NCBI RefSeq assembly: GCF_023008545.1
Contig: NZ_CP095398.1
Location: 1 to 64,000 of the forward strand
Direction of reading: 5' to 3'
DNA length: 64,000 nt
Source: Natribaculum luteum
Lineage (GTDB): Archaea; Halobacteriota; Halobacteria; Halobacteriales; Natrialbaceae
Positions within the stretch are counted from its first letter, which is position 1, and each line of letters starts with the position of its first letter. A program made the translations under genes and the position numbers. The notes below the pieces were generated by a model. It ran no database searches, was not told the DNA's origin, and was given only the letters and a program-made list of their open reading frames with translations. Shown in pieces: positions 1 through 12,399 of the stretch.

Positions 1-137
1 CTACACCACCTATTGTAGCTACTGCGGTAGAGTTAAGCACCTCGCGTATGATGATTCTCACGTCCGTTGATACTGCCGCACGAGATCCAATAGGTACCTA
101 CTGAACCTCGTGTGGCTACAGCGGGTGGTGTCATACG
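1..137 (+). promoter_or_regulatory. Upstream region of the parA operon
   Basis: No gene is seen here. A short inverted repeat CTACA/TGTAG (1-5 and 14-18) encloses the core ACCTATT, which resembles the CTATT-headed repeats found after the operon at 1564-1653. The leftmost bases could be the end of a similar array outside the window, or an operator bound by the partition proteins. Both readings are inference. Confidence 0.3.
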
Positions 138-1010
138 ATGGGAACAAACGTCGAAACTCCGCGCGCGGTAAGCGTAGTGATCCTGAAAGGCGGTGTCGGC
201 AAGTCGACTATCTCGATGAATCTCGCTCGCCAGCTCAGCGAGCGCGGTCGCGTCCTGTTTGCCGACCTCGATCCGAACGGCCACGCGACGAACGGGCTCG
301 GATTCGAGGACGCATACCAGAGCGACACGAACCTCGGCGACGTCATCCTCGACAACGGCACCGCGACGTTGTCGGATCTGATCCAGCCGACGGAGTTCGA
401 ATTCGACCTCCTCCCGTCGTCGGATACGCTCGAGGACGTCGAGAAAGATCTCGCCGGCGCACTCCAGGGGTCGGCGCGAGTGAAGACGAAGATCGTCGAT
501 CCGCTGCTGGGCGATCGCTACGACTACATCGTCTTCGACTGTCCGGCGTACCCGGGGATGTTGAACAACAACGCGCTGGTCGCGACGGGCAACGTCGTCA
601 TCCCGATCGCACCCGGCTCGAGTTCCATCGGCGGCTACAAGCGGACGATGGAGCGACTCATCCTGCCAGCTCGAGAGTACATCGACGTCGACGTGCTCAC
701 GATCGTCCCCAACCAGATCCAGAACCGGATCGATCAGCAGACCGAGGATCGCGAACTGCTCGAGAACCTCAACACGGCCGATGCGACCGCCGACAAGGTG
801 CCGAGTTTCGCGCGGATCACGGCCGACGAGTTCGACGCGATCGACGCTGGCGAGCGTCGACCACCGAAACCGGGCATCCGTCACCGGGCCGCGATCTCCA
901 AGTCGCTCAAGTACAACCAGCCGCTCCAGGACTACGACCCGGACAACGATCAGATACCGCACTTCGAGGAGCTCGCCGACATCGTCGCAACGGGTGGTGT
1001 CGATCGATGA
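138..1010 (+). CDS. parA: ParA/Soj-type partition ATPase
   Basis: A 290-residue deviant-Walker ATPase of the ParA/MinD superfamily. Near the N-terminus it has the signature KGGVGKST with the extra lysine that defines the family. The Walker A' stretch YIVFDCPAYPGM lies around residue 130, and a Walker B-like VLFADLDP around residue 40. Such proteins bind DNA non-specifically with ATP and move plasmids or secondary replicons away from mid-cell together with a centromere-binding partner. The next gene overlaps its stop by 4 bp (ATGA), so the two are one operon, and an 18-bp-period repeat follows them. This arrangement suggests a segregation cassette. A fixed chromosomal orphan ParA is the alternative. 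Confidence 0.9.
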   Translation: MGTNVETPRAVSVVILKGGVGKSTISMNLARQLSERGRVLFADLDPNGHATNGLGFEDAYQSDTNLGDVILDNGTATLSDLIQPTEFEFDLLPSSDTLEDVEKDLAGALQGSARVKTKIVDPLLGDRYDYIVFDCPAYPGMLNNNALVATGNVVIPIAPGSSSIGGYKRTMERLILPAREYIDVDVLTIVPNQIQNRIDQQTEDRELLENLNTADATADKVPSFARITADEFDAIDAGERRPPKPGIRHRAAISKSLKYNQPLQDYDPDNDQIPHFEELADIVATGGVDR

Positions 1011-1417
1011 CGGACAATCCGTTCGACGACCTCGGGACCGTCTCCGACGACGACTCGCCGTCGGACTCGAACGACTCAGCCGGAGAGACGCCGACGACGG
1101 ACGAACCAACGACGGCCTCGGCGACAGATGCGGACGAGTCGGTGACCTCGAGTGCGGAGCCGGAACGAGATGCCACTGACGCAGCCGACGAGTCGTCGGG
1201 TCCGGCCTTCGAGTACTCCGAAGTCCGCCAGCGGCCGTTATACGCTCGCGGCGAGACGTGGGACGAGTTCGAGGACGCCGTCGGCATCACGGTCGTTCCG
1301 GAACTCCGGAAAGCAGGCATTCGCGACGAAGAAAAGCGCGAGATTCACGACGCCGTCCTTCGGCTGGCCGCACAGGAACCAGACCGGATCGCCGAACTGA
1401 TCAAATCGGAACGATAA
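1007..1417 (+). CDS. Small acidic partner of ParA (putative centromere binder)
   Basis: A 136-residue protein translationally coupled to parA through an ATGA overlap. The first ~70 residues are a low-complexity acidic Ser/Thr/Asp-rich tail, probably disordered. The last ~65 residues, from about YSEVRQRPLYARGETW to the C-terminus, look like a compact helical domain with many charged residues (DEEKREIHDAVLRLAAQEPD). Haloarchaeal ParA genes are commonly followed by a small gene of this kind. By position it may be the ParB-like adaptor, but no ParB or ribbon-helix-helix motif is recognisable, so the role is inference. Confidence 0.75.
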   Translation: MTDNPFDDLGTVSDDDSPSDSNDSAGETPTTDEPTTASATDADESVTSSAEPERDATDAADESSGPAFEYSEVRQRPLYARGETWDEFEDAVGITVVPELRKAGIRDEEKREIHDAVLRLAAQEPDRIAELIKSER

Positions 1418-1563: not shown

Positions 1564-1653
1564 CTATTTTGTAAATCCCCACTATTCCACCCCATGTAAC
1601 TATTCTATCTCACGCACCTATTTTGCCTCGTGCAGCTATTATTCCGAGATTCC
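1564..1653 (+). repeat. Five 18-bp-period direct repeats (CTATT-headed)
   Basis: CTATT begins at 1564, 1582, 1600, 1618 and 1636, always exactly 18 bp apart. The bases just before it are also partly conserved (GTGC, CGCAC and GTGCAG before units 1, 4 and 5). The array lies in the 404-bp non-coding stretch (1418-1821) right after the ParA operon. Spacing of this kind is typical of iterons or ParB/centromere arrays. Nothing else recognisable lies in the rest of the stretch. Confidence 0.7.
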
Positions 1654-12006: not shown

Positions 12007-12399
12007 TCAGGCGACGGGCTGGAGAAACATGACGTTCACCCGTCCGACAGCGTCGAAGTCACGGAGCTGGTACACCAGTTCGCGGATCCGGCCCGCGGAA
12101 CCAGTGCAGAAAATCGTCTCGAGACACCAGTCTCCGCGGTGCATGTGCTGTGTCGTTCCGATGACGTCTTCGAACTCGTGTTGGATCGTGTGGAGGTCTC
12201 CGATGACGAGAGTGTGTTCGTAGTCGAACGCAATCGCCGCGACGGCTTCCCCCTCGAGATCCTCTAGCTGCGTGTGTTGCTCGACGTACTCCTGCATCGC
12301 TTCGCGGACGGCCCGTGAGCGCGATTCCAGTCCCTCTGCCTTCCACGTCTCGTCGAACGTCTCCAGTACTTCCTGTGGGACGTTGAGGCTCGTTCGCAT
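12007..12399 (-). CDS. NikR/CopG-family ribbon-helix-helix regulator
   Basis: A 130-residue protein. Residues 1-45 (MRTSLNVPQEVLETFDETW then SRSRAVREAMQEYV) are a CopG-type ribbon-helix-helix DNA-binding domain. Residues ~50-130 match the NikR ACT-like metal-binding domain. The ligands His-x10-His-x-His and Cys are visible in QHEF...TTQHMHRGDWCLE, with the Cys one residue closer than in E. coli NikR. It is probably a metal-responsive repressor, but nickel specificity is inferred. The divergent MFS transporter gene starts 100 bp away and is a likely target. Its 3' end abuts the remains of the broken HTH gene. Confidence 0.8.
   Translation of the reverse strand: MRTSLNVPQEVLETFDETWKAEGLESRSRAVREAMQEYVEQHTQLEDLEGEAVAAIAFDYEHTLVIGDLHTIQHEFEDVIGTTQHMHRGDWCLETIFCTGSAGRIRELVYQLRDFDAVGRVNVMFLQPVA

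Follow-up and report, generated by a model that had tools for sequence, protein, structure and literature searches.

A CTATT repeat array on a 9-bp lattice as part of a putative parS-like centromere beside a haloarchaeal ParA operon

In this analysis, we have found that arrays of short repeats set on a 9-bp lattice recur beside the same two-gene operon, which encodes a ParA ATPase and a small acidic partner, on plasmids and megaplasmids throughout the Halobacteria. The window (the whole 64,000-nucleotide stretch that was analysed) comprises bases 1 to 64000 of C2, an 861,699-bp contig of the three-contig Natribaculum luteum genome. Its CTATT array is very probably one arm of a split, parS-like centromere that also serves as an operator for the partner protein, within a ParA operon on a megaplasmid.

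The CTATT array, the ParA operon and the replicon

The downstream array (1564..1640, plus strand) consists of five CTATT cores, which start at 1564, 1582, 1600, 1618 and 1636 and fill alternate positions of a 9-bp lattice, giving a step of exactly 18 bp. The first-pass annotation had reported these five cores, and the observation holds: across the 64-kb window, CTATT is the sole 5-mer with at least five occurrences at one fixed period between 9 and 40 bp, and none of 40 dinucleotide shuffles of the window contained any 5-mer repeated in this manner. The sister species Natribaculum breve and N. longum both keep the array, each with a single altered core (CTATC and CTTTT). Analysis of RNA structure in the region downstream gave no signal (z 0.99).

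The parA gene (138..1010, plus strand) encodes a Walker-type ParA ATPase of 290 amino acids, as indicated by Pfam (AAA_31, 4.7e-29; CbiA, 6.9e-13), by PHROG 164, 'ParA-like partition protein' (1.7e-41), and by a Walker A motif of the deviant type, KGGVGKST, that is unchanged in 29 ParA homologues. The partner gene (1007..1417, plus strand), which encodes an acidic protein of 136 amino acids, was recognized from its homologues, from conserved alignment columns and from a model of the C-terminal domain. A 4-bp overlap joins the start of this gene to the parA stop, both in the window and in the loci grouped below as clade I, and clade II starts fit an 8-bp overlap; the two genes are predicted to form one operon. 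Judged from sequence, the combination of a ParA with a deviant Walker A motif, an operon partner and an adjacent cis-acting repeat array is that of a type I partition system.

A plasmid record from N. breve that starts near the same place aligns unbroken over the junction between the end and the start of C2, which indicates that C2 is circular and that its last 2 kb lies directly upstream of parA. The similar core that had been noted upstream of parA is real, as seen in CTATT at 10..14 (plus strand) and in AATAG, which is CTATT on the minus strand, at 89..93, between the upstream array and parA; however, it is merely the tail of an upstream array whose remainder lies at the other end of the contig. 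The same spacing continues upstream of position 1, as the first-pass annotation had proposed to check: cores are present at the C2 end, for example at C2:861691, 18 bp before the core at 10 over the circular junction. Together, the last 2 kb of C2 and window positions 1 to 100 contain 23 CTATT/AATAG cores, about 20 of which sit in the last 2 kb of C2, outside the window. The parA-proximal end of this putative upstream centromere/operator occupies 1..137, with the remainder at C2:859630-861699, and the window array is the downstream part of this larger site.

An insertion sequence of ~0.94 kb (L007:18948-19880; C2:~860623-861566) divides the upstream site. It carries ORFs for a putative ISXO2-like transposase, a name given from sequence, and is flanked on both sides by the 9-bp ATTCACCTA. 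The N. breve upstream site is uninterrupted, without the insertion.

The 9-bp lattice across the Halobacteria and along C2

Scanning the genome collection, we obtained 80 loci, 78 of which were taken for core density (33 from clade I and 45 others); owing to common ancestry among the loci and near-identity among some clade II cassettes, these counts are not independent and serve to show breadth. Partner homologues were found in 78 of the 125 family genomes. Clade I comprises the Natrialbaceae and some Haladaptatus, and clade II comprises Haloarcula, Halorubrum, Halorussus, Halobacterium and others. In the 33 clade I loci, the interval from -200 to -100 relative to the parA start had 31 cores per kb, with a background of roughly 0 to 1.5 per kb in most more distant bins. 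The 45 other loci reached 41 cores per kb immediately upstream of parA, and 31 per kb shortly beyond the partner gene (+1300 to +1400). Clade I loci seldom have a downstream arm, which argues that it is not required everywhere.

Upstream of parA in clade I, same-strand distances between cores were 9 (48 times), 18 (56 times), 27 (26 times), 36 (23 times), 45 (13 times) and 54 bp (14 times), with few others; same-strand distances in clade II resembled these, and opposite-strand distances there preferred multiples of 9. Short repeats in both orientations on a fixed lattice, a trait of type Ib systems, are present here with a 9-bp step. When each locus was tested separately, the 9-bp periodicity was above all 200 dinucleotide shuffles in most loci, and the same test gave nothing comparable at periods of 7, 8, 10 or 11. 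The exceptions to the 9-bp result were weak loci with few cores (L060, L061, L062 and L065), two truncated loci (L100 and L110) and L112, in which a haloarchaeal ParA is accompanied by an unrelated partner and the 9-bp lattice is absent. The search for the array in related plasmids and chromosomes, which the earlier annotation had recommended, thus found the spacing conserved at ParA loci across the class. Helical phasing, the term originally used for the 18-bp step, is the wrong description of a 9-bp step and its multiples, since 18 bp corresponds to about 1.7 turns and to two 9-bp steps, and neither distance is a whole number of turns.

Cores beside other partners were read by eye and from the commonest lattice 5-mers. 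Where the partner belongs to neither clade I nor clade II, CTATT cores are scarce or absent and the 9-bp step is retained: L108 and L109 (Halocatena marina, YIM A00010) have CTAAG/CTCAG cores, L107 has a GGTAG-type core and L106 has a weaker G(T/C)AC series. Several annotated plasmids gave this step too. On pNRC100 (clade II), which has 14 CTATT cores, the score at period 9 was 69 versus 0 to 24 at other periods. Scores at the 9-bp step were 53 for Hbt. salinarum R1 PHS3 (TCTAC core), 35 for Haloferax lucentense (CTTAG/CTAAG) and 27 for Halolamina (GGTAG/TAGCT), and were lower in Halobaculum (15) and Haloarcula JP-L23 (12); the lattice scan gave no clear result for Salinigranum, Halomarina and Natronorubrum bangense plasmid 1. 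The core sequence varies between diverged partners while the 9-bp spacing persists.

The clade II pair of Halobacterium salinarum NRC-1 lies within pNRC100:60907-69155 (L233), with the 14 CTATT cores upstream; the pNRC100 partner is WP_010890437.1, and the genes next to the arrays are VNG_RS12540/12535. A CTATT-type ParA is also encoded on pNRC200 (NC_002608), together with a second ParA of the PHS3 type.

Along C2, on-lattice CTATT chains of at least three cores occur at five places, two of which are at par (1564 and 859728) and three of which are distal (526845, 534769 and 634599). Of 19 alternative arrangements of the core letters examined on C2, 17 formed no chain, and TATCT and TCTAT formed one each. 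The distal arrays (L176:6845-6894, L176:14769-14836 and L181:14599-14639) are intergenic and far from parA, and no par or rep gene was recognized among the ORFs listed near them; it is possible that they are secondary centromere sites. No array was found on the chromosome of the source genome by the patterns searched.

Across the 125 family genomes, the pattern CTATT-N4-CTATT-N(0-24)-CTATT gave at least 150 matches, and the third core was at +9, +18 or +27 in 135 of the 150 matches listed. In genomes with no more than 10 contigs, 69 of the 70 on-lattice matches listed share a contig with a par homologue, compared with none of the five off-lattice matches, although many of the 70 overlap or sit at the par locus, so that they mix proximal and distal arrays and are not independent sites. 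The exception is an on-lattice array in a genome of three contigs, on G072:C1, which lacks the operon.

The source genome encodes two further ParA-partner pairs besides that of the window. The chromosomal pair (L119, C1:813255) has CTTAG/CTAAG flanks at 13-bp steps, which apparently represent a different centromere class within the same genome. The other pair (L118, C3:1-2381, on a 93.9-kb contig) adjoins Orc1-like fragments, and a clear repeat lattice was not found there.

The partner protein

The window partner consists of an N-terminal NPFDDL motif, an acidic low-complexity linker and a conserved C-terminal domain (residues ~65-136). This layout is common to the partners, which have an NPF.DL- or DPF.DL-like N terminus, a variable acidic linker and, over about 70 residues, a C-terminal domain, with invariant alignment columns in the N-terminal and C-terminal parts. 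Clade I and clade II partners are clearly homologous (HHalign probability 98.3). Where the partner is annotated in PLSDB, it is a 'hypothetical protein' among the matches listed, and the clade II partner was unmatched in phage records.

Searches of Pfam, NCBIfam, PHROG and PDB sequence families gave no credible match to the partner, which matches none of the known DNA-binding families. Matches to TFIIE-alpha in the PDB were dropped, because they come largely from the acidic linker. No ParB/CTPase domain was matched in Pfam or NCBIfam; the partner is not a ParB with CTPase and HTH domains, as is characteristic of type Ia and chromosomal ParABS systems.

A model of the full-length partner was of low quality (pLDDT 60.8), whereas that of the C-terminal domain (pLDDT 91.7) contains an extended segment followed by helices at 22-42, 50-63 and 65-75 of the fragment. 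This predicted order of strand and helices would suit a ribbon-helix-helix dimer. The partner has no match to Pfam RHH, its HHalign probability against 13 haloarchaeal RHH_1 sequences was 0.1-0.2 percent, and it was not among the hits of a PF01402 search of the source genome. Neither Foldseek nor VIA-align found a PDB fold match for the C-terminal monomer model, which is weak evidence against ribbon-helix-helix, since a monomer lacks the intermolecular strand pair. The same replicon carries an RHH_1-domain gene at window positions 12277-12396 (minus strand), about 11 kb from the par operon.

Proposed function, alternatives and relation to known systems

We propose that the partner would bind, as repeated units, a lattice with a 9-bp step, the core here being CTATT in either orientation, and that, by analogy with pSM19035, it would coat the lattice or oligomerize along it. 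At about 0.86 helical turn per step, successive units would be expected to wind round the DNA and not to lie along one face. It can be envisioned that nucleoid-bound ParA-ATP would engage the assembled complex via the partner, whose N-terminal NPFDDL motif is a candidate ParA contact, that the complex would stimulate the ParA ATPase, and that the ParA cycle would move and space the plasmid copies. In addition, binding of the partner over the promoter region of parA would keep the operon repressed; such autoregulation is likely, since the arrays overlap that region.

The coverage of the parA promoter region by the upstream arrays, and the position of the distal arrays between genes, would also be expected if the array were a transcriptional operator only, used by the partner or by ParA to repress parA along with other genes of the plasmid, and had no role in segregation. 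We consider this explanation unlikely, since the downstream arm follows the operon instead of preceding it and the distal arrays track the replicon; furthermore, small bacterial ParA partners usually double as repressor and centromere binder. Still less probable is an origin of replication at which an initiator binds the repeats as iterons, which had been named initially alongside a parS-like centromere. Iterons are short repeats at even spacing, an orc1 gene adjoins the par pair on PHS3, and a Cdc6 gene lies about 3 kb from the par pair on pNRC100; however, the Orc1/Cdc6 genes of C2 (64800-65924 and 504102-505229) are remote from the arrays, at 65 kb and 504 kb, so that neither of them stands beside the repeats. 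In addition, the lattice goes with the ParA-partner pair and has different cores where partners have diverged, both of which argue against an origin. A chance or low-complexity effect can be practically dismissed as the source of the even spacing: the array is AT-richer than the neighbouring coding sequence, but the window shuffles, the core permutations, which gave no comparable lattices, and the class-wide conservation of the spacing all stand against it.

The reading as a parS-like site for the acidic partner, which the first-pass annotation had suggested, is favoured by the comparative evidence: the lattice is found across the class and is tied to the operon and the partner family, the core differs where the partner has diverged, and extra arrays lie on the same replicon. 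On the other side stand the negative family and fold searches with the partner, the scarcity of the downstream arm in clade I, the shared descent of the loci and the array on G072:C1.

In its components, the haloarchaeal system is most readily compared with delta-omega/parS of pSM19035, a type Ib system with a ribbon-helix-helix ParB, since both have a ParA ATPase, a small partner, and short direct and inverted repeats on a fixed lattice. The ParB of pSM19035 recognizes 7-bp repeats irrespective of their orientation, and at least four contiguous heptads are needed for activation of the ParA ATPase (PMC9499535). The haloarchaeal lattice differs in that its step is 9 bp instead of 7 bp, its positions are often skipped and its arrays lie on both sides of the operon; moreover, the partner has an acidic linker and no recognizable ribbon-helix-helix sequence. 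Among archaeal systems, SegAB of the Sulfolobales pairs a ParA orthologue with an archaea-specific protein that binds at specific sites and whose gene overlaps on the downstream side (PMC5120986). The haloarchaeal operon shares this arrangement, but SegB was not found when the partner profile was compared with sequences of solved structures up to E = 5 or 10. The AspA-ParB-ParA cassette of the archaeal plasmid pNOB8 also partitions with a ParA (PMC5120986); its three genes include one for an AspA adaptor, and the C terminus of its ParB is histone-like, whereas the haloarchaeal system has two genes and a different partner. Likewise, bacterial ParABS systems with a CTPase ParB have a ParA and a cis-acting centromere, and the haloarchaeal partner lacks the ParB/CTPase domain.

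Canonical ParAB is generally absent from archaeal chromosomes, according to a 2025 survey (PMC12704722), and a 2016 review listed the segregation of halophilic archaeal chromosomes and megaplasmids and the nature of archaeal centromeres among outstanding questions (PMC5120986). The open-access literature searched contained no description of a haloarchaeal partition site or partner of this kind; a match to 'parS' in a Natrinema vector paper concerned primer names (PARS) only. The system resembles a type I partition system in its working, and the partner family and the 9-bp centromere appear to be undescribed. The recurring array beside the operon points to an undescribed means of DNA sorting at division in salt-loving archaea, and provides the haloarchaeal ParA with a candidate partner and a candidate centromere of simple, readable layout. 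The presence of the system on pNRC100 and pNRC200 of Halobacterium salinarum NRC-1 makes these segregation questions directly testable.

We lean, with moderate confidence, towards a partition system common to the whole haloarchaeal class, with a fixed lattice and a core that drifts along with the partner, thereby generating many mutually orthogonal centromeres by which a single cell could keep its megaplasmids separate. Two such pairs, with apparently different cores, are present on one replicon, pNRC200. If the core does follow the partner, these loci would constitute a naturally occurring collection of orthogonal centromeres, and plasmid compatibility would follow a rule readable in the sequence.

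On the Halolamina CBA1230 plasmid (L238, 575-3938), rdfA and a gene for an archaea-specific SMC-related protein come after the ParA-partner pair, and these neighbours may hint at a link with DNA organization.
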